DNA of 64,000 nt from Dioscorea cayenensis subsp. rotundata (lineage: Eukaryota > Streptophyta > Magnoliopsida > Dioscoreales > Dioscoreaceae): NCBI RefSeq assembly GCF_009730915.1, contig NC_052489.1:23553916-23617915 (forward strand), given 5' to 3'. The translations under genes were made by a program, and so were the position numbers. This document shows, piece after piece, positions 6,401 to 63,190 of the stretch. The stretch's first letter is position 1, and every line of letters starts with the position of its first letter. The notes below the pieces were generated by a model, which worked only from the letters and a program-made list of their open reading frames with translations, did not search any database and was not told the DNA's origin.

Positions 6401-7586
6401 TTATATATTTAATTTTTCAAATTTAATATGATATCGGAGATTACGTAAATATTTAATCTTTATAAATTAATACCATCCACAAAAATCATATATAATGAAT
6501 TCATATTACGTATTATATAAAATTTTCTTTTTCAATAAATTATAAATTAATGAGGACTAAATTGTAATTCATGGTTTAGCAAGACAACACCTCAATAATT
6601 TATAATTAATTTAGAACTAAATTACAAAATATTTTCATATTGTTGCAATACAACCCCTCTAATAATCTACAATTAATTGAAGTTTATATTTTTAACGATA
6701 TTTTATATTAAAGTTTTATTCATTTTTAAAATTATCAATACTTTTTGAATTATAAATATTTTTAAAAATTATAATTTTGGTTTTAAAGTTTTTGATCCGA
6801 AATTTTAAATAGTTTTTGTTTAATTAATATTGGGTAAATAAAAGATTCATCAATTTTTAAAAACTATCAATAAATTTTCCGTATGATAGATATAAATTAT
6901 GTATTTAAAATCAAATTTAGTATGATGTCGGGAGATTATGTAAATATTTATTCTTTATAAATTAATAATATACACCATCACAAAATCATATATAATGAAT
7001 TCATAATACGTATTATATAAAATTTTTCTTTTTCAATAAATTATAATTAATTTAGGACTAAATTGTAATTCATGGTTTAGCAAGACAACACCTCAATAAT
7101 TTATAATTAATTTAGAACTAAATTACAAATATTTTCATATTGTTGCAATACAACCCCTCTAATAATCTACAATTAGTTGAAGTTTATATTTTTAACGCAT
7201 ATTTTATATTAAGTTTTATTCATTTCTTAAAAATTATCATTACTTTTTGAATTATAAATATTTTTAAATTATAATTTTCTTTTAAAGTTTGATGCGAAAT
7301 CTTAAAGAGATATGTTTAATTAATATTGGAGTAAATAAAACATTCATCAATTTTTAAAAACTATCGATAATTTTTACAGTTGATAGATATTTTTAAATTA
7401 TATATTTAATTTTCAAATTTAGTATGATATCGAGATTACGTAAATATTTAATCTTTATAAATTAATACACCATCACAAAATCATATATAATGAATTCATA
7501 TTACGTATTATATAAAAATTTTCTCAATAAATTATAATTAATTTAGGACTAAATTGTAATTCATGGTTTAGGCAAGACAACACCTC
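3484..7586. repeat. Satellite-like tandem array, ~500-bp monomer, at least 8 copies
   Basis: The same AT-rich unit recurs head to tail. Its GAATTC anchor lies at 3564, 4005, 4511, 5021, 5527, 6035, 6498, 6998 and 7492, giving spacings of 441, 506, 510, 506, 508, 463, 500 and 494 bp. Every unit holds the recognisable blocks TTGTTGCAATACAACCC, GATATCGGAGATTA and TAATATTGGGTAAATAAA. Within a unit, two segments related to ATAATTTATAATTAATTTAG look like an older half-unit duplication. Differences are mostly short indels. The array is cut by the assembly gap, so its true length is unknown. No ORF is conserved among units. Confidence 0.9.
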
Positions 7587-8586
7587 NNNNNNNNNNNNNN
7601 NNNNNNNNNNNNNNNNNNNNNNNNNNNNNNNNNNNNNNNNNNNNNNNNNNNNNNNNNNNNNNNNNNNNNNNNNNNNNNNNNNNNNNNNNNNNNNNNNNNN
7701 NNNNNNNNNNNNNNNNNNNNNNNNNNNNNNNNNNNNNNNNNNNNNNNNNNNNNNNNNNNNNNNNNNNNNNNNNNNNNNNNNNNNNNNNNNNNNNNNNNNN
7801 NNNNNNNNNNNNNNNNNNNNNNNNNNNNNNNNNNNNNNNNNNNNNNNNNNNNNNNNNNNNNNNNNNNNNNNNNNNNNNNNNNNNNNNNNNNNNNNNNNNN
7901 NNNNNNNNNNNNNNNNNNNNNNNNNNNNNNNNNNNNNNNNNNNNNNNNNNNNNNNNNNNNNNNNNNNNNNNNNNNNNNNNNNNNNNNNNNNNNNNNNNNN
8001 NNNNNNNNNNNNNNNNNNNNNNNNNNNNNNNNNNNNNNNNNNNNNNNNNNNNNNNNNNNNNNNNNNNNNNNNNNNNNNNNNNNNNNNNNNNNNNNNNNNN
8101 NNNNNNNNNNNNNNNNNNNNNNNNNNNNNNNNNNNNNNNNNNNNNNNNNNNNNNNNNNNNNNNNNNNNNNNNNNNNNNNNNNNNNNNNNNNNNNNNNNNN
8201 NNNNNNNNNNNNNNNNNNNNNNNNNNNNNNNNNNNNNNNNNNNNNNNNNNNNNNNNNNNNNNNNNNNNNNNNNNNNNNNNNNNNNNNNNNNNNNNNNNNN
8301 NNNNNNNNNNNNNNNNNNNNNNNNNNNNNNNNNNNNNNNNNNNNNNNNNNNNNNNNNNNNNNNNNNNNNNNNNNNNNNNNNNNNNNNNNNNNNNNNNNNN
8401 NNNNNNNNNNNNNNNNNNNNNNNNNNNNNNNNNNNNNNNNNNNNNNNNNNNNNNNNNNNNNNNNNNNNNNNNNNNNNNNNNNNNNNNNNNNNNNNNNNNN
8501 NNNNNNNNNNNNNNNNNNNNNNNNNNNNNNNNNNNNNNNNNNNNNNNNNNNNNNNNNNNNNNNNNNNNNNNNNNNNNNNNNNNNNN
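7587..8586. other. Assembly gap of 1000 N
   Basis: Exactly 1000 N follow the last, incomplete satellite monomer. The round size suggests a placeholder and not a measured length. The sequence after the gap is unlike the sequence before it. Confidence 0.99.
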
Positions 8587-40603: not shown

Positions 40604-41368
40604 TTAAGCACACACCACCTTCTCCCCCTCCTTCACCTTCTCCTTCTCCTTTTCCTTCTTCTTGCATTCCTCCAGCTCCTTCAGCCACAAATCTGCAAAC
40701 TCGCAATCCTTGTACCTCTCGAACCACGGCCCTCCAGAAGTATAATGCAGGACCTTGGGAAAGGTCTCAGGGTCCTCAGGATCAACCTTGTTATGCCCCA
40801 CAAGGAAATTCCACACAAATGGTACCTCTCCGATCTCATCATCATCCAGCCACATGAAACGATGGAGATAAGCACCGGACTGCGTGCTGACAACCTCGGG
40901 GGTAAGCGCAGCTCGGTTCTTAGGATGTCCGCAGTTGTAAAGCACCATCGACGACCAGTTCTTGCGGGGATACACAGTCTGCACGGCGCCATCCATCTTG
41001 GTCGCCTCCTTCGGCGCGTACTCATGCTTTACACACATAATGGCGAAGCGATCGTCGATGAGGGACAGAAGCGGCGCGATGTCAGAGGTGTAGAGGAAAT
41101 CGCAGTCGATGAAAAGAGCCCATCCGGAGTAGGAGGCGAGGAAGGGGGTGAGGAAGCGGGTGAAGGAGAACTCGGTGCTCTCCGTCGGGCCACGATCGCG
41201 CCAGTAGAGGCCACCAGACCGGAGCTCGGACTGCTTGATTGGGGTGATAGTGAGAGGAATGGAGGAATGCTTCAAGAGTGAGTGCTTGCACACGTCAAAC
41301 GCCACCTCCTCGCGAGGGTCGTAGCCGACGAAGACACGGAACGGAGCAGCATGGCCATTGGATGACAT
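40604..41368 (-). CDS. CDI: CDI-type nucleotide-diphospho-sugar transferase
   Basis: A single uninterrupted exon of 254 residues. It matches the plant CDI family, putative glycosyltransferases of the nucleotide-diphospho-sugar transferase fold. The Arabidopsis member is needed for pollen germination and tube growth. Visible features are an N-terminal beta-strand start (FRVFVGYDPREEVAFDVCKH, about 10-29), the acidic metal-binding motif FIDCDF with DCD at residues 88-90, and a conserved-looking block LHYTSGGPWFERY near 207. There is no signal peptide or membrane segment, so a soluble protein is inferred. The C-terminus ends in an unusual Lys/Glu run (about 235-252). The start is supported by family-like sequence beginning at once and by a telo-box leader 10 bp upstream. 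The sugar substrate is not deducible. Confidence 0.88.
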   Translation of the reverse strand: MSSNGHAAPFRVFVGYDPREEVAFDVCKHSLLKHSSIPLTITPIKQSELRSGGLYWRDRGPTESTEFSFTRFLTPFLASYSGWALFIDCDFLYTSDIAPLLSLIDDRFAIMCVKHEYAPKEATKMDGAVQTVYPRKNWSSMVLYNCGHPKNRAALTPEVVSTQSGAYLHRFMWLDDDEIGEVPFVWNFLVGHNKVDPEDPETFPKVLHYTSGGPWFERYKDCEFADLWLKELEECKKKEKEKEKVKEGEKVVCA

Positions 41369-41377
41369 GGATAAACC

Positions 41378-41397
41378 AAACCCTAACCCTAACCCTA
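41378..41397 (-). promoter_or_regulatory. Tandem telo-box in the CDI leader
   Basis: Three consecutive AACCCT units, the first preceded by an extra A, lie on the + strand 10 bp upstream of the CDI start codon. On the coding strand this reads as TTAGGG-type repeats. Interstitial telomere motifs at this position are known cis-elements of plant housekeeping genes. The copy number is higher than the single motif usual in leaders. Confidence 0.6.
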
Positions 41398-41784
41398 GAG
41401 GAGAAGAGGAGATCTGGGGAAATGGGGATTGCTCTGCGAGAAGGAAGGGAGGAGATGAGAAGGGAAAGAGTGTCGGTGAAGAAGAAGAACATCGAAACGC
41501 GTGTTTCCCGTTTCAAATCTCGGGGAATAAGAATCGGATCGTACGGTCCAGAACGCGGTAATCACGGTCACGGAAGGAGGACCTGAATGTAGGACCGTTC
41601 GAGCATCAGTCAAGGCTTTCCTAAATTTGTCGGTTTGGAAATGCTTTGATTTTTCAAATTTAGAAAATTCTTATTAATAAGGGACTAATTTAAAATATAC
41701 TTTTTAAAAAATCATAGTAGGATCAGAATTATCTCGTAATTTGTACAACATACCATAATTTAATATTTTTTGAGAATTATTCCA

Positions 41785-48081: not shown

Positions 48082-49386
48082 ACATTAATCAGCTCAGAAG
48101 TAGAGGTGCAGGCATGTATCATAAGGACATGAAGAAGACTAACAAGTTGTTCATGTTCACATGGTTCCTGAGAACATAAAGGAAAAGCTAGGTGTCTAGG
48201 CTTCTAGCTAGCCGGATAAAATAAAGGGAGATAAGATAATAAATAAATAAATAAAAGGAATAGTATTAGAACTTGTGTTGGCGTTGGGATCAATCCTTGA
48301 GTCAGTGTGCACACATTGAGGATCATGCATGGCTGGTTGGCATTCCAAAGCAGCAAGCAAAGTTATCAAACTTCTTTATCAGAGAGAAAAAAAATAATAA
48401 TAACAAATTAAAAATGATCTATCAACAAGTGATTGTTTATATATATAATTATATAAAAGAAAAGGTTTGTTAATGGTTTTATATATACAAGCTTTGAGAA
48501 GCCATCATTACCAACCGAAAGCTTGAAAGTTAGCTAACCACTGGAAAAAAAATGTGTAGTAGAAGAAGAAAATAAAACAAGTATGTGGGTGGACTTTTAA
48601 TTGTGTTTTTTGAGAATTAAGCTTGGAAACATTGGTCCAGGATTTAGATTTGTGAATTAATGAAATTTCATGATAGAATGTAAACTTGGATTAATGCTTG
48701 CTTGATAATTTTTTATGTATACATTAAATTTATGGTAAACCAAAAATGACTTGGACTAAATGCACTGATTTTTTTTTTTTTAATAAAATGGATATATAGA
48801 TCATCAATTTAATAAACTAAGAAGACTTGTACAAAAATAAATAAATAAATACAAGTAAAATTGGATCCATTGGGTGTGAAGTTGAAATATAAATTAAAAA
48901 CACATGAGTTAGATCCGATTACAAACATGTAGGCCAAACTTGATTGTTACCCCTAGTAGGAGAACCATTCGATTGCATAGTGATTGATTTATAAAAAATT
49001 TTGCTTGAATTGGTAAAGAAAAAACATATATTATATAAGTGCACTCATTTTTAATTTAGGTGAATTACTATTAAATAAAATAATAATAATAATAATAAAT
49101 TAATAATAATAATAATAATAATAAATACATAGGAAAGGCAATTGAAAAAAAAAAAATCAAGCTTAGGAATATTTTTCTCATTGCACCCTAACCATTATTT
49201 TTCATCATGAAAGTAGCTCATAATTAACACAAGAAAACTTGAGTAAAAAAAAAAAAAAGTTGAATGCTATCATATCATGAGTTCATACTAGAAGCACTTG
49301 AAAGTCCACAAATCAAGCTAAGACTCAAAGATGACAAGGGTGCGCGAAGAACTTGCATGCATTCATGGACTATATATGTATGTATA

Positions 49387-51335
49387 TGTCGTGTCCCAGC
49401 CCCACGGCCGGGCCCGTAGACAGATCGGTCGCATCCAATGGGACTGGTCCCCACTGGGTGCAAGGCCTCAGATTTGATATGGTCAGAGTTAACCCTGACA
49501 AGCAGAATATGAACAGTAATACAGAACCACAAATAGGATAATAGAAACTGAAATAATACAAGTATGGGCTTTAGCAGCCCTACAGGATACTGAGTCATAC
49601 AAACAGTCTAAAGACCCAGAATATGCAATCAGAATACAAGTCTTACTCATACAAAGAAGTTCACTACAAAGATACTATCAGAGCAGGAAATACGACTCCA
49701 AGACACACCCCGATCCTAGACTTGATCTTCTCCTGCGAGAATAGAATTCACAGAGTGCATGAGCTACAAGGAACCAGTAGGATCGCAGAAATAAAAACCG
49801 CCAGAAATACAGAATTTTACGAGTGCGAGAGCCTACCTGGCTCCGAGCTACAAAGTCGGGTTCACCAAGTCTCGCAAACTAAAGCTCGCTACAATAATCT
49901 AACCCAATAAAATAAACTACACTCAGAAATAAATTCTTGGGCCGGGTCTAATCTACAACTAAGCCCCAAAGGAAGAATTAACAATCAATCAAACCACAGC
50001 TTTAATTTAAAAATCACTAAATAAAATAAAAGATTAAGCACCTAAGCCCCAAGTTTAAACAATGAAGATTCACTTAACAAACACAACAAGATTATTAAAA
50101 TTTAGAGCAACTAGGCCAATTAAATCATCAGGACATCTCAATCACCATTTAACAAAACACTTAAAAAAAATAAACTATCATACATGATAAGAGGATGCCA
50201 TATTTTAACAATTAGGCATACAAAGGCTGCAGGATAAACATGCATAATCAAATATATACACACACATATAATTTTACAAATCATCTAAACAAACATGCTT
50301 ACACAGGTGCATGCTTAGACTAAATCCAGATATCATGCTCATATACAAACATAATAGACAGAACTTTAAAAAACATAACAAAGTACTTAAAAACCAGAAA
50401 ATTTTAGAAAATCAAATACTACAAAAAAATAAAATAAAATAAAACCTCATGCAGACTTACAACATCTCAACCTACAACATTTAAATACAAATAAAGATTA
50501 AACTAAGAACATGATTACATGATTAAGCTAAAAATAATCAGAAATCTAACATATCAAGGTTGCAGGAACTCTAGCATAATTAAGTGTACATATATATATA
50601 TACCTCCATAAATGTGTGATTAAATAATTTAACAAATGAACATGCTTTGCAGGAACACCAAGTCTACAAATGTATATACGTAGAGACATATGCATATTGA
50701 TTTCAATCTCAGAGTATGATCACAACAAGATTTAAATTTCCAGTATAAAATCAGGGAAACATGATTCTAAGCAAGCAAAACTCACAAGAAGCATGCATAG
50801 AATCAAAAAGGTAAAGCTAGGCTCCCAAGGAAAAAATATCATGCTTACACCCAGTAACATACAAATCAAATTTGCAAGATCCAAACATAACCCAGATTTT
50901 GGTTTTAAAGATGCCAAGCAAAGGCCAAGACCACCATAAATACATATACATAAAAACAACAAGCTGAACCCCAAGCTCTCTAGAATCAAACCAGCCATTG
51001 CTAGCTCCTCAAGCAAAGTTACAACAATCTAACCTTAAAACGGAGAGATCGCAGACCCACCAAAAAGCTATAGCAGAACCACCAGCACACCCAAGCTTAG
51101 AGCTTCCAACAAGGAGAAGGAGAGAGCTTGAAGAAGAAGAAGAATACTAGAAGAGGGTGTTGCTTTCAAAAAACCCTTCTACCAACCCCGACAAGACCGG
51201 AGTTCACGGGTGAGAAGCCAACTTGTGAGGAAAGCTTGTTAGGAATCCAAGGATTCGGTCAAACGGTCAAAAGTGAAACAAAAAAAAAAATCTTCAGTAA
51301 ACTTGGTCAACAAAACCAAGGTGACAGACATTACA
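49387..51335. mobile_element. Probable solo LTR (1.95 kb)
   Basis: The insert begins TGTCGTGTCCCAGCC and ends GACAGACATTACA, giving the TG...CA termini of LTRs. It is flanked by GTATA on the left and GTATG on the right, a near-match target duplication in a TATG-rich site. Copy B at 62160-62190 shows the uninterrupted site, which defines the insertion. There is no gag, pol, primer-binding site or second LTR. The frame at 50732-51016 (minus, hydrophobic) is not recognised. A single long LTR left by recombination of a retrotransposon is the simplest reading. Confidence 0.6.
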
Positions 51336-51541
51336 GTATGTATGTATGTATAGCATTCAGTCATGGACCAGCTGGGAGCTGATCAGTCTGTGTCTCAAAT
51401 CTTGATGCAAGAATTCTGAAGTATCAAATTAAGGAATAATAGAAAAGCGGGAAGGGGATGGAAAGATATGGTTCTCACTAATGACAATGGAGACATACAT
51501 AAACTTCATTCTTGAACTCAGGGAGGTTGTTATCACACTAA

Positions 51542-52826
51542 GGGTGTGTTTGTTTCCATGGATTTCATTGTCACTGGATTTGTTAATCCCGAGAATTTTT
51601 AAATCCCATGTTTGTTTATAAGGATTTTGACTTTGCTTTGATTTTCAAATCCCATATATGAGGGATTGCAATGTTCGGCAGAAATGACAGTAAAACGAAA
51701 TCTAGGACCTAAAATCCCGTACATGGGCTGTCACGTGAGGGATTCAAGGATTCATGAAAGAGGGGTGAGACGATCTCATCTTGAGCTTGCTTCTTCTCAT
51801 CTTGACCATGTTTCAACTTGAATCCAAGGTGCCTGCTCTGATTTGTTTTAGTTGTAATCTTCTTCTTCACTCTTCTTTGCCTACTGCTTTGATTTACTGT
51901 TAAGCAAAATTCGGGAATGGCTTTTTGAGAAGGTGGTGGTGGTGGTGGTGAATGATGATATCTACATGATAAGGTGAGTAGGAAGAACTTTGAGGTTTTT
52001 AGAGGCCAGTTGCAACCCCACGTTCTTTTGCCATTCCTTCTTTCTTTCTTTTCTTTTTTCTCTGGGACCAAATCTACAGAGAGAGAGAGATATGGTTTCT
52101 TTGAAAAAAAATTTTATCTGCTATTTATTCAGTAATTTATCAAAACCATTCAGATAGCAACAAGAGTGTCCATAATGCACATGGGATGAACAAAAATCAA
52201 TGAATTAATGATCACCAAAGTATCTACCTCAATGGACTAATTGATTAATTATTGTGTTTTAATTATGGACACTCAATCTATTTTTGGGGCTAGTTGATTA
52301 ATTATTGTGTTTTAATTTTTTTAACCTAAATTATATTAATTAAAATTAATAATAATATTAAAAATAGTTTATAAATAACTCACTATTAAATATAATTGGG
52401 AATTTTATAATCAATAAATTAATGATCACCAAAGTGGTATTCTTAATATAATTATTAAAAATAAAAGTTAAATGTAATAAAAACATAATTATATTTTAAA
52501 TTAAGTAATTACATCCATAATTAATTTTATTATTATTAACATTTAATTATGTATTTTTCATTAATTAAAGTTAATGATAACTTAAGGTGGGGTAATCTCA
52601 CCAAAGGTTTTTATATCCTAGAAATACATTCAACCAAATACATATTTTCAAAATCTAGATTAATAAATCCTTCCAAACAAACACAAGATTTTAAGATCCA
52701 ACATTTTCAAATACAGTTAACCAAACACTAAATTTGATTCTCCTGCATTTTTAAATCCAAAGATTTACAAATACACTGTAATTCAAAATCTACTGTATTT
52801 TCAACTACATCTAACCAAACACACCC
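51542..52826. mobile_element. Tourist/PIF-Harbinger-like non-autonomous element
   Basis: Terminal inverted repeats GGGTGTGTTTG...CAAACACACCC are flanked by the 3-bp duplication TAA (51539-51541 and 52827-52829), the hallmark of PIF/Harbinger elements. Sub-terminal blocks such as CCATGGATTT and AAATCC also mirror one another. At 1285 bp it is larger than a typical Tourist MITE but has no transposase. Copy B of the segmental duplication has the empty site near 62380. Confidence 0.7.
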
Positions 52827-53693
52827 TAAGAGCCAGCTAGGTGAGAAGGGTGGTTTGTTTAGTTGTGCAATATCTTTTGGAGTGCTAGATGCTGTCTTTG
52901 CTTAACAACAAATTAGTACTTCTTCTTCTTCTTGTTCTCAGTACTGCTTTTGAGTGATTTTTTTTTTATTTTTTTTATTTTTTTTTATTTTTTTGCGTTT
53001 CCAGCTCCTTTCGCAATCATATATACATCATGCATGTGCCATGCTGATGTTTGTTTTTATAATTAATGGTATACCTATTTGTTGATTTGGAGTATATGTT
53101 GATTAGTTTGGAGTTAGTGGCAGTGTACGTATTTATTTGGGGTTTTAGATATATAATTAATGTCTATCTTTTTTATCAATGCTTGGTTGGAGTAGGATTA
53201 GTGAACTAATTGATCTAGAAACAAAAATCTCAAATTCCTATATAACATTGAAAATTATATATATATATATATATGATAATTTTCCTGACATTAATTGCTC
53301 TAATTTTATAATAAAATTAATAGTTCTAATTTTTTCATACTCATCAGCGCTATGTTATCATCTCAAATGTGTGGCACACTCAAATGGTATTGTAGTCATG
53401 GGAACAATCATTTTATATGAATAGTTGCATTCTATTTAACTCAATAGTGACAGTGCTTCACAACCAAATTTATTGACTATGTTGTCATAGTTAAAAGACA
53501 TTTATTTTATATCTTCTTTGTTTGCACCAACTCTTGGGTTGTGAGAGTTTTTTATTTCAAGAAATTGGAGGAAATTGAGTTATTGATATTCAAGCCCGTC
53601 AAGTAGTAAACTTCAAATTTTGTTTTACAAAAAAGAATTCCTTAAATGGCATTTAAAAAGGAGCGGTAGAACTTGGGAAGTCATTATCTGTAA

Positions 53694-54226
53694 TGGTAGG
53701 CAGCAAGGAGGAGCCAACGACTTTGGATTTAAATGTTCAGCAAGTGAGGGGGAGGATAGATGGCATCTCAACAGCAAAATTAATGAACAACGGAACTAAT
53801 AAAGTGGAAAGAGATAAGGCAACTTGGCTCAATAGCAGAAGAATGAAAAGGAGAAACACATGTCTCGAAGAGTTTGTTACAAACATCAGCATGACCAATG
53901 AGTGAAAAGGAGGAGCTCGATAATGAGCAGGTTATTACACCTACGTGTAAAGGGGCTATGAAGAGGGAGAAAGAGAAAGGACAAGGCAACAAAGATTAAA
54001 GAGAAGCCTTAGTGTTTTGGTGAAGCTCCTCCTAGCATCTCTGGCTACTGGCTTAGGAGGAAAGCTATTTTTCACTTATCTTACTGTTATTTGTAATATT
54101 TTCATTGGATCTACAACTCTATGAGCTTAGTTTGTTGGATTTCTGTTATTCATGTTGGATCTTCTGTTATTTGTTAATTGATACTCAATATATCTGAAAG
54201 AAAACTTGTTTGAAGTGTAATTCTCA
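53694..54226 (+). repeat. 5' LTR of the Ty3/gypsy element
   Basis: The start TGGTAGGCAGCAAGG and shared blocks GGATTTAAATGTTCAGCA, GCAGAAGAATGAAAAGGAGA, CACCTACGTGTAA-like text and GTAATATTTTCATTGGATCT align along the full length with the 3' LTR. Substitutions and small indels are numerous, so insertion is not recent. The ends were set by eye, with an uncertainty of about 10 bp at the right end. Confidence 0.85.
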
Positions 54227-54339
54227 GAGTCTGTAAAATTATCAAACACATAGCCACATTAATAGTGTTGAATTACCAGTATCTCAAGCTATGTTGTTAA
54301 TGGGAGATCAAGATTCCTGTTCCTTAATTGCTACTAAGA

Positions 54340-54698
54340 TGCAAAGCGATTCATTTGGATTTCCCACGTTTTGGTGATATTGATGTTCTTCAATGGATTT
54401 TTCAAGTAGAACAGTTCTTCAATTATTATGACATTACTTATGCTTATTAGTTAAAGATTGCATCTATCCATTTTGATGGTCCAATGGTTCGGTAGTATCA
54501 GATGCTACAGAAGACATGGATTATATCATCTTGGTCTCACTTGGTCAGAGAGGTTGAGACTGTCTATCGACTTTTTGCCTATGAAGATCCGAGTCATACT
54601 CTGTTTAAATTCACACAGGAGGAGTCAGTGATCCACTACTATTCTAATTTCAAAGCATTGGCCAGTAGGGTGGATGGTATCTCTCCTACAACTCTTCT
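54340..54698 (+). pseudogene. Retrotransposon gag, first (truncated) copy
   Basis: The frame reads LDFPRFGDIDVLQWIFQVEQ onward, then [20 protein letters not shown], the gag motif of Ty3/gypsy elements. In-frame stops occur near 54451 and at 54493-54495. The copy breaks off at 54698, directly after SPTTLL, where geminivirus-like sequence begins in the same frame. The remaining gag is found only in the second copy after 56454. Confidence 0.8.
54394..54698. repeat. 305-bp gag direct repeat, copy 1 (left flank of the viral insert)
   Basis: It starts at TGGATTTTTCAAGTAGAACAG and aligns without indels to 56454-56758. The relative position of landmarks is constant; for example TAG at offset 99 in both. 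Substitutions are scattered. This copy immediately precedes the geminivirus-like DNA. Confidence 0.9.
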
Positions 54699-54705
54699 CA
54701 AGCAG

Positions 54706-55155
54706 GACATCGATCGGTCGATCAATCTTGTCCTGGAAGGCCTGAGTCGTATCGGTAAGGCTGCTTGGGCTTGGTCATTGGGTCAACATAATTATATCTG
54801 CGGCCATTTGGACTTTAATCCTGTCACCTTTCGGAATGCTGTAATGTATAATGTCATCGATGACGTAACCCCTAACTATCTCAAATTAAAACACTAAAAA
54901 GAGTTAATTGGCATTCAGTAGGATTGACAATCCGATTGTAATTATGGCAAATTAATTCAAATTAAAAGCGGGATTCCTTCCATTGTTATATGCAATTTGG
55001 GACATGATTCCAGTTATATAGATTTTCTGGATAAGGAAGATAATATTTTTTTAAGAGAGTGGACCATACGCAATGCTCAATTCGAATTCAACATCTCTCT
55101 TATTTTCCAATCAGCGTGGACAACTACCAGTACTGTGGCTGCTACTTCCACTTGA
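54706..55155 (+). pseudogene. Geminiviral Rep (C1/AC1), C-terminal helicase-half fragment
   Basis: The replication-initiator protein of geminiviruses combines an endonuclease and a superfamily 3 helicase; only the helicase half remains. The P-loop position reads GLSRIGKA, with Ala where Ser or Thr is expected. The Walker B-like YNVIDDV (near 54848-54868) and the motif C-like ICNLG (about 54994-55008) are retained. The frame carries stops at 54895-54897, 54919-54921 and 54925-54927, then runs open to TGA at 55153-55155. It is in the same frame as the preceding gag fragment. The endonuclease domain is absent. It is a non-functional relic. Confidence 0.85.
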
Positions 55156-55186
55156 TTGACTTTTTTTAGTTTTGTTTCCCATTTCC

Positions 55187-55310
55187 TGCACTGGCCATGG
55201 ACTTACAGACCGGGGAGCTCATCACCGCTCCTCAGGCAAATAATGTTGTGTTTTTCAGGGAAGTACACAATCCATTGTACTTAAAGGTAATCGAGCATAT
55301 CAGTCGGCCT
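55187..55310 (+). pseudogene. Geminiviral TrAP (C2/AC2) frame remnant
   Basis: In the frame overlapping the REn start there is a Cys/His-rich stretch, CTGHGLTDRGAHHRS, at 55187-55231. It is placed where geminiviruses encode the zinc-binding part of the transcriptional activator. A stop follows at 55241-55243, and the frame reopens with further Cys residues. The N-terminal part is disrupted by stops upstream of 55187. It was identified mainly by position and overlap, so the confidence is moderate. Confidence 0.5.
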
Positions 55311-55550
55311 TTCAACAACAATTATGACGGAATCAACATTGAAATCAGATTCAACCATAACTTGTGGAAATCTTTGAAGTTGCACAAATGCTGGTTATTT
55401 TTCTTAATTTGGACCACATTGGAACCTTTGAGTTCCAACTTTCTTCATTTGTTTAAATTTCATGTAATGTGGTTCTTAAAGACTTTTGGTGTTATTTCAA
55501 TTAATTCTGTAATTTGTGTTGTTGGCCATTTTGAATTGTCATTAATGTAG
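55197..55550 (+). CDS. REn-like (C3/AC3) replication-enhancer ORF of the endogenous geminivirus
   Basis: An uninterrupted 117-codon frame. The start MDLQTGELITAPQANN and the central block IRFNHNLWKSLKLHKCW are clearly of the geminiviral replication-enhancer family, whose members interact with Rep and host PCNA in the nucleus. The C-terminal part (VMWFLKTFGVISINSVI) is also family-like. The ORF then ends earlier than the usual length of about 134 residues. It overlaps the TrAP remnant and is followed by poly(A) signals, as in the viral genome. Its neighbours Rep and TrAP are broken, yet this frame is intact, by chance or by selection. Expression is unknown. Confidence 0.8.
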   Translation: MDLQTGELITAPQANNVVFFREVHNPLYLKVIEHISRPFNNNYDGINIEIRFNHNLWKSLKLHKCWLFFLIWTTLEPLSSNFLHLFKFHVMWFLKTFGVISINSVICVVGHFELSLM

Positions 55551-55568
55551 ACCAATCTTCACATATTA

Positions 55569-55582
55569 AATAAATCTTTATT
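55569..55582. terminator. Bidirectional poly(A)-signal pair
   Basis: AATAAA on the + strand (55569-55574) and on the - strand (55582-55577) face each other 19 bp after the REn-like stop codon. In begomoviruses the two convergent transcripts terminate at this point, so the pair supports a viral origin. Confidence 0.5.
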
Positions 55583-55914
55583 AATTGGTTTTCTGTTCTA
55601 TAATCCTTTTTTATTAGTCATTAAATTTCTTCCTCACATTGGATCCATCTAAAACTGAATGCAAACCATTATTCATGGAATATACTAATACAATATTCCC
55701 TTACATGATGACATCGTACTCAATGATTTATACATAATTTTTGCCATTACAATCCTTACCGTGTACATATTAATTTTTTTTTTTGTTCTTCTGCGCCTCA
55801 TTCACTTGTGATTTAATATTTAGTTTGTAGTGCTCCTTTACACATACCAATGTGACTTATCTCTCGTTTATTTTTCATCTTTACCCCACCACTCTCAATG
55901 AAATTGAAGGCCTA

Positions 55915-56350
55915 GCTCACATCTTTATCCTTTTTACCTGAGCTCGCAGCGTATCGTAGGAAACGAAATACGGCATTTTCCTGCTGCTGTAATGCATTTG
56001 CATAGTTCAACCATACTTGCGAGTCTTCTTCAAGTGTTAGGGCCATGCAGATTCCCTGTATACAATTGAATATTGTATTTGTTCAATATATCTTGAATAA
56101 TATAAACATAGCAAAGATCTCCTCTTTCTCCATTGTGTTTAAATTACTTGGTACGCATCACGTCTTTATATGATACATATTCTTCTCGTTAAGCCACTGC
56201 TTCGTCGAAATCTTCCATCGGACAAAACTTTTATAATTATAGCAAACATAACTGACATGTGGGGTCCATTGCCCATCCATGTGAAGACTTGGGCGGTCAT
56301 CTACTTCGAAGCCAAGATCTATTTTATTAATAAATGGAAAGGTCATCCAC
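55915..56350 (-). pseudogene. Possible decayed virion-sense region of the geminiviral insert
   Basis: In the viral map the coat-protein gene would lie here on the minus strand. I see only scattered weak resemblance in broken frames (for example RDAYQV near 56145-56160) and a short open stretch ending at 55914 (DSQVWLNYANALQQQENAV) that I do not recognise. The spacing from the poly(A) pair is too long for a simple coat-protein end. It may be other DNA captured with the virus. Confidence 0.2.
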
Positions 56351-56453
56351 ATGTGTTAACAGTACCCTTTTCCTATACATATTGCGAGACCTTTAATTTG
56401 AACCATCGAATCATAAATCAACACGTGGCAGTACAGACGAGGGCGGCCATCAG

Positions 56454-56758
56454 TGGATTTTTTAAGTAGAACAGTTGTTCGATTATTATGACATTATTGA
56501 TCCTTATTGACTAAAGATTGCATCTATTTATTTTGATGGTCCAATGGTTCCGTAGTATTAGATGCAACAGAAGACAGGGATTATACAATCTTGGTCTCAA
56601 TTGGTTAGAAAGGTTGAGACTGTCTATGGACTTTTTGTCTATGAAGATCTGAGTTATACTCCATTTAAACTCACTCAGGAGGAGTTAGTGACCCACTACT
56701 ATTCTAATTTCACAGCATTGGCCAATGGGGTGGATGGTATCTCTCCTACAACGCTATT
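56454..56758. repeat. 305-bp gag direct repeat, copy 2 (right flank of the viral insert)
   Basis: It aligns base for base with 54394-54698. It continues into the rest of gag, so this is the copy joined to the body of the element. It carries stops at offset 9 (TAA), at the TGA following DIIDPY, and at 56553-56555 (TAG). The last is shared with copy 1. Confidence 0.9.
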
Positions 56759-57160
56759 GCCCTATTTTATTAGTGGCCTAAAAAAGGAAATTCAAGGAGA
56801 TGTTATTTCATGGAAATCTGACTCGCTAACTACGACTTTTACATTGGCCAAATTATATGAAGAAAGATACTCAAAAACTTCTTGGGGACTTCCTAAGAAG
56901 ACTACTTTTCCTCAATATATTAATTCAATTTTTGGTCTGCAGAAACCTGCTATGGGGCCAATATTCCACCACAAACTTTACCAACTCCAATACTTTCTGC
57001 GGGGTCACCAGTTGCTACAACTCCCGCATCAATGCCTAGTTCTTCCAATGGAACACCATCCTTTCGGAAAATGACTTTCAATGAAATGCAATTGTGTAAA
57101 GCTAAAGGATTATGCTTTAACTATGATAAAAAATATACCCCAGCTCACATATGTAAAAAT
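56454..57160 (+). pseudogene. Retrotransposon gag, second copy, with zinc-knuckle relic
   Basis: The gag core (VETVYGLFVYEDLSYTPFKL, then LPYFISGLKKEIQGDVI) runs to a nucleocapsid-like CFNYDKKYTPAHIC near 57115. There the second Cys of the CCHC knuckle is Tyr. Frame breaks occur in the first 100 bp and near 57070. The order matches the Ty3/gypsy retrotransposon gag family. Confidence 0.8.
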
Positions 57161-57299
57161 AGGAGATTGTTATTATTACAATGGGAGAAGGAAACTTCTG
57201 CTGAGACTGTTGATGAAACTGAATTTTTGGCGGCAATTGATACACCGTCAGATGATAATTCTCCTAAACATTCTTTAAATGTAATGAATAGTGCACCAG

Positions 57300-57620
57300 T
57301 TTCAGGGACAATGGGGTTCATTAGATCTATTAATGGCTATGTAGTTGTTGTTTTATTGGATAGAGGCAGTGATGATAGTTTTATCCAACCCCGGATTGCA
57401 AATTTTTTAAAGCTTGATGTCCCACCAACGAATCCTTTTAAAGTCTTGGTGGGAGATGGTAATTCATTGTAAGTTGAAGGGTTTATTGAAGACTTGCAGA
57501 TAAAAATTCAAGGCCATGTCTTAAAGCTACCTATATATTTGTTGTTAATTGAGGATATTGAGGTGATTCTGGGTGCAGCATGGTTAGCCACTTTGGGCTC
57601 CATATTGTTGATTACAAGGC
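57300..57620 (+). pseudogene. Retrotransposon aspartic protease relic
   Basis: The protease frame shows VVVLLDRGSDDSFIQPRIA. The catalytic triplet D-(S/T)-G is D-R-G, which should inactivate it. The domain continues with LLIEDIEVILGAAWLATLGS after a stop at about 57470. It lies between gag and reverse transcriptase, as expected. Confidence 0.75.
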
Positions 57621-57899
57621 TAGATCATCTCAATTTTTTTAATAATAATAATTTTATTACCTTCCATGGTGACAAGGATGTGGGTCCAAAATTAGCATCA
57701 CGACATCAACTGCATAGACTTTGTATTTCTAAAGCTATTGCTAAATGTTACAATATTTCTGTTCAAGATTCCATCACTAGCACACATCAACAGATGCAAT
57801 CAAAGCCTCCAAATTCCATTACTGACTTCTACTTGGAATTTCCTACTAACATGCCTGAATCCTTAAGGCAATTATCGTTAAAGTATCAAATTGTATTTT

Positions 57900-58480
57900 C
57901 TCTCCCTATTGGACTTCCTCCACCAAGGGATTGTGATCATTGCATCCCATTACGAGTTGATATACCACCAGTCAAAGTTAGCCCCTATAGATATCCCCAC
58001 AGCCAAAAATTAAAATAGAGTCAATGATGAATCAAATGTTGCAGGAAGGCTTAATTGAACCAAGTATCAGTCCTTTTTCTTCACTAGTGTTACTTGTCAA
58101 GAAAAAGTATGGTACATGGTGTTTTTGTACCAATTATAGGGCCTTGAATGCCATTAGGTACCATAAAGATGCATTCTCTATTTCTACAGTGGATGAATTG
58201 TTAGATGAATTGAGTGGAGCTCAAATTTTTTTTCCAAGCTAGACCTCAGATCGAACTGGTTATCATCAAGTTTTGGTGCATAATGAGGACAAACATAGAA
58301 CAGCTTTCAGGATTCACCATGGCCATTTTCAATGGCTTGTTATGCCCTTTGGGTTATAATTAAAATGCTCCAATAACTTTTCAAGCTTTACTAAATTGTA
58401 TTTTCAGTTTTTTAATGCGCAGACATGTTCTCATATTTTTTGATGATATCCTTGTTTACAGTAAAGATTGGGATAGCCAT
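57900..58480 (+). pseudogene. Retrotransposon reverse transcriptase, broken
   Basis: The start block GLPPPRDCDHCIPL and PPVKVSPYRYPHSQ is followed by a frameshift and stop at 58016-58018. Then come NQMLQEGLIEPSISPFSSLV, KKKYGTWCFCTNYRALNAI, a frameshift near 58228, and VMPFGL with a stop. The catalytic box is FFDDILVYS (58435 onward), with the aspartates kept. It is typical of Ty3/gypsy RT but has at least four breaks. Confidence 0.85.
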
Positions 58481-58599
58481 TTATTACACTTGGAGCAAGT
58501 CCTCATCACTCTACAAGAACATAAATTGTATGCTAAATATTCTAAATGTTGTTTTATTCTATTTCAAATTAAATACATGGGTCATGTAGTATCAGCAAC

Positions 58600-59215
58600 G
58601 TGTGTTTATATGGATAAATCTAAGGTGGATGCTATTTTGCAGTGGCCAACACCAACTAATGTCAGATAATTGAGAAGATTTCTGGGACTCAGTGCTTACT
58701 ATAGAAGATTTATTAAAGCATATGAACTAAAAGCTCAATCAATGATTGATCTTTTAAAAAAGGACTCATTTCTGTGGACTGTAGATTCTCTATCAACATT
58801 TCAGACTCTTAAAGACACCATTGCTTCTGCACCTATCTTGAAATTACTTGATTTTTCTCAACCCTTCATTTTGGAACTGATGCATCTAAGATTGGCATAG
58901 GTGTTGCATTAAGCCAAGATCATCATTCTATAGCTTATTTCTCCAAATGACTTTCTTTGAGCATGCAGAAATAGTTAACCTATGTACAGGAAATTATGCA
59001 ATAACTGAATTAGTCAGCAAATTTTGCCATTATCTTTATGGCCATAGATTTATTATAAGAACTTACCAAGAAGTATTGAAGCATTCATGTCAACATACCA
59101 TTTAGACTTCAAAGTAGCAATTGTGGCTTCCTAAGTTACTTGGGTATGATTTTCATATTGAATATAAACCCGACAAGGATAATGTGGTTGTAGATGCTTT
59201 GTCAAAGTGCTTTTC
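58600..59215 (+). pseudogene. Retrotransposon connection/RNase H region, broken
   Basis: VDAILQWPTPTNVR, a stop near 58669, then RRFLGLSAYYRRFIKAYELK, the standard RT-RNase H connection of Ty3/gypsy elements. After 58900 the frame shifts. Remnants such as PLLTYVQ-like text and EYKPDKDNVVVDALSKC (about 59161-59210) mark the RNase H end. Confidence 0.75.
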
Positions 59216-59339
59216 ATTGCAATTGTCTTCACACATTCAATAATCACAGCTGCAAAACCCTTATTGTCTGGCTATTATTCAAAATATTTAGTCAACTGAT
59301 TCTATTAATGACAAGGGTAAGCTACTGATTCTAGATAAT

Positions 59340-60130
59340 CATCAATTGAAACAAACATTACTGCAAGAATTCCATTCTACTCCTATGCTAGGATGGCTCA
59401 TCAATTTTTCCAGAAGGGCATGCTCAAGGACATTGCTGAAATTTGTGAAATCCTGCCTTGTGTGTCAAAAAGCAAAATCTAATCACACTCATCCTAGGAG
59501 TCTTCTACAACCTTTCCCTATTCCACAACAAATATGGGAGGATCTTTCAATGGACTTCATCATGAGGTTACCAGTTTCTATAAGATTCTATAAGATTTAC
59601 TGTTATTTTTGTGGTGGTTAATATGCTATCCAAATTCGGCCACTTCATTCCATTAAAAGCAAATTTTTCTAGCGCTATCTTGGCAGAAGTTTTTATTCAT
59701 CATATTATAAAATTGCATGGAGTTCTAAAAACTATAATTAGTGACAGGGACAGAGCTTTTCTAAGCCGTTTTTTAAGACATTTGTTTCAGGTTATGGGCA
59801 CAACATTGTCAATGTCTTCAGCATGTCATCCACAGACGGATGGTTAAACTGAAGCTTTGAATAAATGCCTTAAATTATATCTGTGTTGTTTTGTTTCAGA
59901 CAATCCAAAAGCTTGGGTTGAATTATTACCTTGGGCATAATTTTGGTATAACACTTCTTACCACTGCAGTGCAGAATTAACCACATCCAAATTAGTGAGT
60001 GGACGTGATCCTCCAACTTTGATTACTTATTATTCTAATGAGAATGATTCGCCAGAGGTTTCCATATTAATGCCGAAACGAGATACAGTTTTATCCCAAT
60101 TGAAACATAATTTGTTGAGGGCCTAGCATC
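59340..60130 (+). pseudogene. Retrotransposon integrase, broken
   Basis: The N-terminal zinc-finger relic ends in SCLVCQKAKSNHTH. The catalytic core shows WEDLSMDFIMRLP (first Asp), ISDRDRAFLSRF (second Asp) and HPQTDG followed by a stop and EALNKC (the Glu region). A frame change lies near 59600, and further stops at about 59845 and 59938 interrupt the core. Confidence 0.85.
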
Positions 60131-60349
60131 GGATGAAGAAGTTTGCTGATAAACATCATACAAAGGTCTCCTTTGAGGAAGAGAACTGGGTATTTGTTAA
60201 GTTACAGCCATATTGTCAACACTCTATTACTTTGCGTAGGAATGAAAAACTGAGTATGAGGTATTTTAAGCCTTTTCCAATTATACAAAAAATTGGTGTT
60301 GTTGCATATAGGTTGCAATTGCCTAAAAGTGTTGGTATCCATCTAGTGT

Positions 60350-60605
60350 TTCATGTCTCTTTTGAAGAAATGTGTGGGCGATCACACTGATTATAAGGCC
60401 ACATCGCCATTAATTACCACAGGACAAGGTCATATCCTTCAACTTGTTGCGGTGCTACAATTTCGCAACATTCTCAAAAATAGCATCTCTGTTTGTCAAG
60501 CGCTTGTGAAATGGGACAGTTATGTTGTGGATGATACTTCCTGGGAAGATTGTGAGCTCTTGCATTCTTATTTCCCTCACTTAGACCTTGGGGACAAGGT
60601 CATTG
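60350..60605 (+). pseudogene. Chromodomain-like integrase tail
   Basis: The segment QALVKWDSYVVDDTSWEDCE followed by FPHLDLGDKVIVKRGGIV is the C-terminal chromodomain-type ending of plant chromoviruses. It lies just before the polypurine tract. Chromodomains guide integration toward particular chromatin. This copy is cut off from the broken polyprotein. Confidence 0.65.
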
Positions 60606-60607
60606 TA

Positions 60608-60618
60608 AAAAGAGGGGG
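60608..60618 (+). other. Polypurine tract
   Basis: AAAAGAGGGGG ends three bases before the TGTTAGG start of the 3' LTR. This is the expected plus-strand priming site and helps fix the LTR border. Confidence 0.75.
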
Positions 60619-60621
60619 TAT

Positions 60622-61176
60622 TGTTAGGGCTAGCAGCAAGGGGGAACCAATGACTTCGGATTTAAATGTTCAGCACATGAGGGGAGGATGGATGATATTC
60701 TAGCAACAAAATTAATGAAAAGCGGAGCTAATGACGTGGAAGGAGATAAGACAGCTTGGCGCAGGAGCAGAAGAATGAAAAGGAGAGGCACACGTCTAGA
60801 AGGGTTTGTTACAAACTCCAGCGTGGCCAACGAGTGAAGAGGTGGAGCTCTGCAATTACGCCTACGTGTAAGGAGGCTATAAAAGGGGGAAGAAAGAGAA
60901 GGGATAAGGTAGCGAAGAGGAAAAAGAAGAAGAAGAAGAAAAAGAAGAAAGAGACGTCTGGTTCTGGTGTTAAGCTCTGGCGAGCATCTCGGCTATCAGC
61001 TCTGGTGGAAAGCTATTTTCTACTTATCTTACTGTTTTTTGTAATATTTTCATTGGATCTATAACTCCATGAGGTTAGTTTGTTGGAATTATGTTATTCA
61101 TATTGGATCTTTTATTATTTAATATTTGATACTCAATATATCTTAGAAGAAACTTGGTTTGGAATGTGACTCTTTA
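60622..61176 (+). repeat. 3' LTR of the Ty3/gypsy element
   Basis: Begins TGTTAGGGCTAGCAGC and aligns along its length with 53694-54226. It contains an extra GAA-rich expansion (60918-60950) that the 5' LTR lacks. A TATAAAAG motif at about 60880 is a candidate LTR promoter TATA box. The right end is approximate. Confidence 0.85.
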
Positions 61177-61204
61177 GGTGGTGATTGAGAATTGAGTTTG
61201 GATT

Positions 61205-63190
61205 AAGCCATTAATCCATAACATTATCACCAATTGAAAGCTTGAAAGTTAGCTAATCATCAAAAAAATAATTTGTAATGGCAAAAGATAAAAAAATCAA
61301 TAAAACAAATTTGGTGGGTGAACTTCAACCGCGTTCTTTGAGAATGTGGAAACATTGGCTTAGAATTTAAATTTTTGAATTAAGTAATGAAACCTTATGA
61401 TAGAATAGAACAATAACTTGGATAAATGCTTGTTTGATGATGTTTTTTTTTTAATCTATATACTAAATTTATGGTAAACTAATATGACTTGAATTTGGTG
61501 TTGTTAATGCAAAATTTACCTTGCGTACCTAAAAAATTAAGAAACTTAAAAACAGAAAAGCAAAAAATAATCATATCATACAAGTGCACCAATATATATA
61601 TATATATATATATTTAATTAAGATGGATTACTAAATGTAGTAAATTAAAAAATAATAAATACATAGTGAAGGCAAATGAAAAAAAATCAAGCTTTGAGAT
61701 TTTTTTTTTTAAAAAAAAATAATAATCCCTCAGCAACTAAATGAAAATTAGGATTAATTATCAACCATTGGATAGCCCAATGGTATGACACCAAAGTATA
61801 AAGGGGAGGTCATGGGTTCAAACCCCTCCCCCGATAGTACTGTTCATCGCAATGTTCATATACTGTTCATCCGGGATTTTTATACTATTTTTATACTGTA
61901 TATCCGGGTTTCAGTACTGTTTGGTACTGTTTATATTCATATAAAAAAGACGTTTGTCACCTATTATTAAAAAAAAAAAAAAATTGTAAAATTGCATCCA
62001 ACCAAAAACTCAGTAGAAAGAAAGAGAGAAAGAACAGCATGAAAGACTTGATAGTTATCATACTATGAGTTCACACATGAAGAAGCACTTGAAAGTTCAC
62101 AAATCCAGATAATTAAACCCAAGAAAGATAACAGTGCATGAAGAACATTCATGCATGAACTATATATATATATATATCATTCAGTCTTGGTCATGGACCT
62201 GGGAGCTGGATTGACTTCAAGTTTGTGTCTCCAATCTTGATACAAGAAGTCCGAAGCATCAAAGGAATAAAAAAAAGCAGGAAGGGGGAGCAAGGGAGAG
62301 ACATGGTTCTCACTGATTATATATGATGGGGACGTAGACTTGACTGTTGATTCTTGAGCTCATGGAGGTTACTGACAAACCAGGAGGTAAAAAGGGGTTG
62401 GTTCAATTATTAGTGCTATCCTCTAGAGTGCTACTGTCTTGGATTATCAACTTTTACTTCTTCTTCTTCTTCTTCTTCTTCTAAGTTCTGCTTTTGAGTG
62501 AAAGAATCAAGAAGGGTCACAATTTGCATTCCTAGCTTTGTGCTTTTATCTGTTCTCATGTTATTCATCATACAAGTAATGTAAATGATGATGGTCAAAT
62601 ATTTTATAGTTGATATTTGTTTTTTTTTTGTTAATTTGGAATATCTGCTCAAAGTGTAATGGCAGAGCATGATATGTTTGTGGTTTTAGTCAGATATATA
62701 ATGTCTATCTTTTCTTAGTGATTAGTTGGTTGGAGACTAATTGGAGTAGTATTAGTGAACTAATTATGGCCAACAAATGGGATTCATCATAAGTTCATTC
62801 TTTTTCCATGAATGGTAATGTGTGGAATATGTGAAAACACACTTAAATAGTATTGTAAAAATAAAAATTCATTTTACATGAATAATTTACATTTTATTTA
62901 ACTTGGTGGTAATAGGGATCCACAATGAATGATGTTTCCTAATATTTATTTTATATTTTCTTTGCTTGCACTGTCTCTTCTTCCTACTGTGCAGTTTATT
63001 ATTTTAAGGAAATTGGAGGAAATTGAATCATTGAAATTTAAGACTGAGCTATAATATTTTTACAAATCCAAATATTTTAGTTCTGAAAATCAATATTCTC
63101 AAATGATAACCTAATAAATAATTTTAAAAATAAAAATCTAACGCAATGTCTTGAATGGAACTTAAAGAGAGACGTAAAGAAATTGACTCT
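61205..63190. repeat. Segmental duplication copy B
   Basis: Direct, diverged counterpart of 48495-53685 without its two big insertions. It begins within about 30 bp of the 3' LTR and ends before the ARF-GAP gene. It carries its own insertion, a SINE (61765-61983). A (TTC)n run at 62457-62482 is shared with copy A (52921). No intact ORF is shared. Confidence 0.8.
61765..61983 (+). mobile_element. tRNA-derived SINE with poly(A) tail
   Basis: The head GGATAGCCCAATGGTATGAC (box A) and GGTCATGGGTTCAAACCCC (box B) are spaced like a pol III promoter. A body with repeated TACTGTTCAT/TACTGTTTATAT phrases and a terminal A-run (61967-61983) follow. It is absent from the matching place in duplication copy A, so it entered after the duplication or was lost there. 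It is not a tRNA gene, because there is no acceptor-stem pairing. Confidence 0.65.

Follow-up and report, generated by a model that had tools for sequence, protein, structure and literature searches.

A geminivirus fragment between two copies of a gag segment in a decayed Ty3 element of yam

We analyzed a 64,000-nucleotide stretch of the yam Dioscorea cayenensis subsp. rotundata (hereafter the window), placed within the assembly at C19:23553916-23617915, in which a piece of endogenous geminivirus (EGV) interrupts the gag gene of a decayed Ty3/gypsy retrotransposon and lies between two direct copies of 306 bases of gag. The assembly searched comprises 584 Mb in 2249 contigs. Judged by its gene content, the window is plant DNA and the EGV is integrated in the Dioscorea nuclear genome, because the CDI-type gene at 40604-41512 on the minus strand has its best named match in Dioscorea zingiberensis, with 86% identity.

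The viral insert and the element around it

The features of the element and its insert are as follows:
53690..54230, plus strand: 5' long terminal repeat (LTR) of the decayed Ty3/gypsy element (BLAST; aligned to 60622-61180 with 105 mismatches in 528 ungapped columns)
54231..54695, plus strand: 5' leader and N-terminal gag (Retrotrans_gag, 1.5e-6), the final 306 bases (54390-54695) being repeat copy 1
54696..56449, plus strand: EGV insert of 1.75 kb with the complementary-sense genes on the plus strand (most of its length matched by tblastx and blastn to other EGV loci within this genome)
54697..55128, plus strand: C-terminal part of Rep with in-frame stops (by alignment to loci with Rep, L016 and L021 among them)
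55197..55550, plus strand: REn (AL3) frame with altered C-terminus (Gemini_AL3, 6e-31)
55861..56142, minus strand: broken remnant of a conserved virion-sense open reading frame (ORF) of no known family (tblastx to up to 20 of 29 other loci; multiple alignment)
56391..56449, plus strand: intergenic region with the origin hairpin's left arm at its end (aligned to the complete hairpins of L020, L029, and L061)
56450..56755, plus strand: repeat copy 2 of gag, running on into downstream gag (88.6% identical to 54390-54695)
56756..60620, plus strand: remainder of gag and pol (protease, reverse transcriptase, RNase H, integrase, and chromodomain traces), split over several frames
60622..61180, plus strand: 3' LTR with a purine tract just before it (alignment to the 5' LTR)

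From 53690 to 61180 the element has the gag-protease-reverse transcriptase-RNase H-integrase order, the chromodomain, and the LTRs of a Ty3/gypsy chromovirus. Two pol domains score above the Pfam cut-off (RVT_1, 6.9e-11; SH3_Tf2-1, 2e-19), and RT_RNaseH_2, Integrase_H2C2, Chromo (0.003), and RVP_2 (0.012) fall below it. The element is located at the junction of an old tandem duplication, where 48503-53594 and 61222-63042 on its two sides are collinear copies with 70-74% identity, and the left copy has two additional segments at about 49387-51337 and about 51528-52839.

The frame at 55197-55550 is, on its sequence, certain to be REn, with 55% identity to the begomovirus REn P0002 (tomato leaf curl Mayotte virus) and 96% identity to P0001 from a contig of 1446 bases. 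The original prediction had read Rep, TrAP, and REn in the insert, of which REn stands and Rep is present as its C-terminal part only. The Rep piece was recognized because it aligns to Rep-bearing EGV loci, and the number of other REn loci with a tblastx match varies along it from 17 to 26 of 29; alone the piece has no Pfam match and two PDB matches at E 0.8, neither credible. TrAP was not recognized, the single open frame scanned (54928-55155) having no Pfam match, and no wider TrAP search was made. Nor did nine minus-strand pieces of 55540-56455 give a geminivirus match for a coat protein (CP), the one match being at chance level (Chibby, 0.051).

The viral block had been thought to end near 55550 and in fact extends to about 56449, since elsewhere in this genome there are EGV loci that match 55850-56150 (by tblastx, as many as 20 of the 29 other REn loci) and 56391-56449. 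The insert ends on the right with the hairpin left arm GGGCGGCCATC; the hairpin is complete in L020 and L029, and in the window its loop and right arm are absent. The stretches at about 55550-55850 and about 56150-56390 have matches in few loci or in nearer relatives only. By these matches, 54696-56449 is geminiviral except for these two stretches and, at its left end, some 10 bases of doubtful origin. Nothing points to a function of the locus.

The gag repeat, its age, and its origin

The alignment of 54390-54695 with 56450-56755 is free of gaps over its 306 bases and contains 35 mismatches (88.6% identity, E 7.6e-110), which confirms the original prediction of a split gag gene whose text is repeated without indels. 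The gag text (Retrotrans_gag, 1.5e-6) stops at about 54695-54698, copy 1 continuing the upstream gag and copy 2 the downstream gag. The same segment is single-copy and uninterrupted in L065, a 70% relative which is not an orthologue of the window element. The insert at 54696-56449 sits exactly between the copies with a 2-bp overlap at the right junction, where 56450-56451, the two bases after the hairpin arm, are compatible with both virus and gag. Its first 10 or so bases (54696-54705) are ambiguous and may be diverged virus or filler. The Gemini_AL3 and Retrotrans_gag matches and the repeat alignment together bear out the placement of geminiviral DNA within a Ty3 gag with a long gag duplication on both sides.

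Rep starts in frame with gag, resulting in a 133-codon ORF (54496-54897, P0125), and this frame recurs at 99% identity in a cluster of four sequences from eight contigs of another source, possibly non-independent samples. The left junction is thus unlikely to be an assembly chimera. An assembly artefact would be in keeping with the frequent misassembly of plant repeats, and the independent check covered the left junction only; against it stand the left-junction frame, the 11% difference between the copies, and the fact that the sole N run of the window lies at 7587-8586. We consider an artefact very improbable.

The repeat copies are shown to be younger than the LTR pair. The LTRs differ at 105 of 528 sites (Kimura two-parameter distance [K2P] 0.2375, bootstrap 0.192-0.292) and the gag copies at 35 of 306 (K2P 0.1255, bootstrap 0.084-0.171), a difference with a Fisher p of 0.0015, or 0.0048 away from gaps, and a bootstrap ratio of 0.34-0.78. 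If 6.5e-9 to 1.3e-8 substitutions per site and year are assumed, the repeat would date to 9.7-4.8 million years (My) and the LTR pair to 18.3-9.1 My.

Mismatches between the two copies are spread over codon positions as 14/12/9, and the sites at which both copies agree against the outgroup gag of L065 as 24/11/39 (third positions, Fisher p = 0.013). The absence of codon bias between the copies and the third-position bias in the older divergence imply that the duplication occurred after gag had lost constraint. In three gag/pol controls compared with L065, the first of which overlaps copy 2, third positions account for 40/76, 78/165, and 34/72 mismatches. In the comparison with L065, both copies share the difference at 74 sites, and one copy alone differs at 30, with 13 and 17 changes unique to one copy or the other; these counts and the 14/12/9 distribution fit neutral drift after insertion.

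Recombination between two element copies had been listed as a possible origin and, with one of them carrying the virus, would give diverged gag on both sides of the insert. Among the best 40 of 91 candidates scored in the gag search of the assembly, however, the longest matches other than the second copy are only 69% identical, as against 89% between the copies, and short pieces reach up to 77-80%, those within the repeated segment up to 77%. The copies therefore most likely arose in place, as far as these matches tell, and the 74 shared against 30 single differences also argue against such recombination, to which we give very little weight.

Template switching during reverse transcription, which would have captured viral RNA and integrated the chimera as one unit with the retrotransposon as a carrier, had also been proposed. 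The insert does lie inside the gag of an LTR element, and routes by way of retrotransposons have been considered for caulimovirids, among other viruses, in the part of PMC10377300 drawn on here. This origin predicts a repeat at least as old as the LTRs, and the divergence comparison gives the opposite order; the differences between the copies show no codon constraint, and the insert includes genes in both directions together with the intergenic and origin region. A carrier should also have left further elements with the same gag junctions. When the whole arrangement (query 54300-56850) was searched for, no second copy of it was found among the best 40 of 141 candidates scored in this genome, the full query being matched at the window only. 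Template switching is thus hardly credible, and the Ty3 element was probably not a virus carrier; what stands of the origins listed in the original prediction is an event after integration of the element.

A similar arrangement was seen on C11, where two direct copies of a non-viral sequence (L066:952-1446 and L006:1846-2353, that is, C11:2747151-2747645 and 2749196-2749703) immediately adjoin the two sides of a viral Rep-REn stretch (L006, about 300-1850). The copies align over about 495 bases with 11 mismatches and a few gaps, in BLAST pieces of 456 and 40 columns, and the parts of the repeat inside L006 have no match in the other loci at hand. Should this repeat be a target duplication, its age would be far below that of the window repeat, and yam EGVs would show long target duplications repeatedly. 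Flanking repeats within about 1.5 kb were scanned for at 63 loci, two of which (L025 and L031) are the window itself; besides these two, L006, L007, L010, L021, L029, L041, and L051 gave matches. The repeat of L029 was rejected as a target duplication, as it holds the origin region and is therefore viral.

We consider it likely that the Ty3 element was already dead when it suffered a staggered break, and that the repair of this break took up linear viral DNA and doubled the target. When two strands are broken at staggered positions and the ends are filled in, tandem target duplications can result. A Ty3 chromovirus would have inserted into the yam chromosome and died there; later, the two strands of gag would have broken about 306 bp apart, and the staggered ends would have been filled in and joined to a linear geminivirus fragment, which duplicated the 306-bp target. 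The 1.75-kb viral piece, from the Rep C-terminus to the origin hairpin, would thereby be left precisely between the copies, with its non-hairpin end ragged inside Rep. Capture of linear DNA at a filled-in break would account for the exact position between the copies, the 2-base overlap, the doubtful bases at the other junction, and the presence of genes in both directions with the origin region. We infer both that the repair step was the fill-in of a staggered break and that the donor was a Rep-nicked molecule. The original prediction had held that a target duplication could not explain the repeat, which is right for a transposase-type duplication of a few bases and does not extend to the repair of widely staggered breaks.

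An alternative in two steps, in which 306 bp of gag were duplicated in tandem and the virus was then inserted at the junction, or in which unequal exchange followed viral insertion, would likewise yield a repeat younger than the LTRs and differences without constraint. It requires the virus to have landed precisely at the junction of the copies, and to have done so again in the C11 case, and no virus-free gag tandem is evident in the gag match list (best 40 of 91 candidates, not inspected match by match). We regard it as unlikely.

Several points weigh against capture at a filled-in break. A stagger of 306 bp is long, and long flanking repeats are unusual at yam EGVs, as among the 63 loci only those of the window and L006 were recognized, with five hits unassigned. 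The repeat at L006 could be an older duplication or belong to a repeat family, and the searches for further copies scored the best candidates only. As to the dating, the two LTRs are not proven a pair, and no matching short repeat was recognized as a target-site duplication of the element when its ends were read by eye. LTR and gag may also differ in mutation rate, and the repeat could seem younger than it is if its copies, 2 kb apart, underwent gene conversion.

Elsewhere in the window, a satellite array (3494-7586), its units repeating about every 470-510 bp, ends at the 1000-N assembly gap at 7587-8586, and Rfam at the gathering threshold and a tRNA scan gave no matches.

Donor lineage and endogenous geminiviruses elsewhere in the genome

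At least 141 REn matches were found in the assembly, 150 of 165 candidates having been scored. Among the 30 best REn loci, only that of the window has an LTR or gag within about 1.5 kb. A nucleotide match to the insert is present in 28 of the 29 others (L030 has none), the longest per locus being 64-72% identical and short ones up to 79%. The nearest relatives, on C3, C7, C18, C20, and C853, are 72-78% identical along longer stretches, and two short stretches reach 86-88%. One locus on C18 (L061, C18:18302000-18311999) is a cluster of EGVs in tandem units of roughly 1.2 kb with pieces in both orientations, and is 74-77% identical to the window insert between 55545 and 56277. Twelve pattern stretches in IMG/VR were considered as close relatives of the insert, and none was confirmed.

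Mismatches between the window and L064 by codon position are 25/14/40 in Rep and 29/15/40 in REn. This excess at third positions implies that much of the divergence accrued while Rep and REn were under selection, and by this pattern the donor lineage is a virus or an expressed EGV.

The broken virion-sense ORF is open over about 90-107 codons in five other EGV copies (L026:2129-2398 and L023:2121-2387 and L011:2097-2369 on the minus strand, L022:901-1176 and L005:948-1220 on the plus strand), and is situated on the side expected for V2 and CP. Between deep lineages its mismatches by codon position are 11/7/36 and 28/14/52, and in close pairs 3/4/5, 3/6/5, and 5/7/8, without codon bias. This is as expected if the ORF encoded a protein that was selected before integration. 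Four of the five proteins have no Pfam match and the fifth matches Rod_C at 0.11; four PDB matches lie at E 0.075-0.96, and none of these is credible.

Rep opens the viral strand at the hairpin and stays covalently attached to the virion strand at its 5' end. In virion sense, the insert's right end begins a few bases past the Rep nick, and the ends of other yam EGVs were compared in this respect. After exclusion of L031 and L065, 73 pattern matches to the origin left arm were found, of which 39 were dropped by eye; one palindrome among the 34 arms left was counted from both strands. In 18 the sequence stops within about 10 bases after the arm, 12 pass through the loop, and four fold back. Among the 18, eight have flanks present in no other locus at hand, and the flank of the window matches gag loci only; the other nine share flanks, including L005 (a viral fold-back), one arm of L014 (joined to a viral Rep stretch), and L052, L054, and L056 (a common flank).

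In a by-eye reading of 30 loci, homology ends at the arm in 10 (L005, L008, L010, L011, L014, L018, L019, L022, L024, and L025), of which L005, L011, and L019 end by folding back. The loop is present in five (L004, L007, L009, L020, and L030), and 14 end earlier or are unclear; L023 stops about 10 bases before the arm. Three candidates for clean origin ends were rejected, namely L005 for its fold-back, one arm of L014 for its viral Rep junction, and L023 for falling short of the arm. On the Rep side, 15 of the 30 loci end inside Rep, 220-1000 bases above REn (L007 by the contig end), three pass through the origin, and one (L002) ends at the arm; 13 of the 30 loci were inspected base by base. 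At L005, L011, L019, and perhaps L032 and L023, head-to-head joins near the origin hairpin lack the loop and are palindromic over the roughly 40 bases examined.

The pattern of ends suggests, without proving, that Rep-nicked linear DNA was integrated with the Rep-linked end kept. Agrobacterium T-DNA integrates with a comparable polarity. That yam EGVs in general integrate in this way, as a Rep-linked linear strand whose nick end is kept to within some 10 bases of the origin and whose other end is ragged, is a tentative and rather doubtful proposal. L006 is a counter-example, with neither end at the origin arm on the virion-gene side; in addition, the loci are partly related, some in tandem arrays, the ends were picked by eye, and hairpins may break spontaneously.

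Relation to known insertions and significance

Insertions in plants that form tandem duplications were reportedly the subject of work by Vaughn and Bennetzen in 2014, whose title is all we go by, and Schiml et al. in 2016 are said, again by title, to have dealt with tandem duplications from the repair of adjacent strand breaks in plants. In contrast to the duplications named in these titles, the filler here is viral DNA.

The yam EGVs EGV1 and EGV2 have been known since 2015 (Filloux et al., PMC5014472, cited from part of its text). They resemble the window copy in host genus, in their begomovirus-like Rep and REn, in their age, in the origin hairpin of some copies, of which the window copy keeps the left arm, and in that coat protein and TrAP are not recognized. 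Unlike them, as the same part of the paper describes them, the window copy is a broken one that lies within the gag of a retrotransposon, with a long direct repeat on both sides; the words "gypsy", "junction", and "retro-" do not occur in the paper, and "transpos-" occurs three times (PMC5014472). That work put forward a spread of yam EGVs driven by Rep in the manner of Helitrons, and junction evidence for it was not found in the part examined (PMC5014472).

In the sections used of a survey of plant EGVs (Sharma et al. 2020, PMC7758297), 882 of 2,165 extended loci carry plant-typical Pfam domains, those of transposable elements included, and hotspots are reported. The window locus is similar to these in that an EGV adjoins plant domains. 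"LTR" and "gypsy" are absent from the paper, and no insertion is dated in those sections via a flanking duplication (PMC7758297). Endogenous banana streak virus is flanked by a Ty3/gypsy element and was dated by LTRs (Gayral et al., as told in the part used of PMC10377300), which likewise places DNA of a non-retroviral plant virus with a Ty3 element. There, simultaneous integration was assumed and is named as a possible flaw (PMC10377300, in part), whereas the two clocks of the window suggest that the virus came second. Filler capture of viral DNA at breaks is discussed for caulimovirids in the same portion of that source.

In the literature search, no paper was recognized as describing an EGV inside gag with a flanking duplication. 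New here, as it seems, are the clock given by the target duplication (about 5-10 My at the assumed rates), the one-sided excess of EGV ends at the origin, and the conserved third ORF. To our knowledge, non-retroviral viral fossils are normally without a clock of their own. A long target duplication made at capture is such a clock, and nesting in an LTR element provides a second, older one, so that the two together order the events and bracket the arrival of the virus. The mode of integration with a long target duplication may recur. The interest of the locus lies in this double clock, in the possible second case on C11, and in the polarity of the ends, and a genome with at least 141 REn matches permits testing whether Rep shapes integration.

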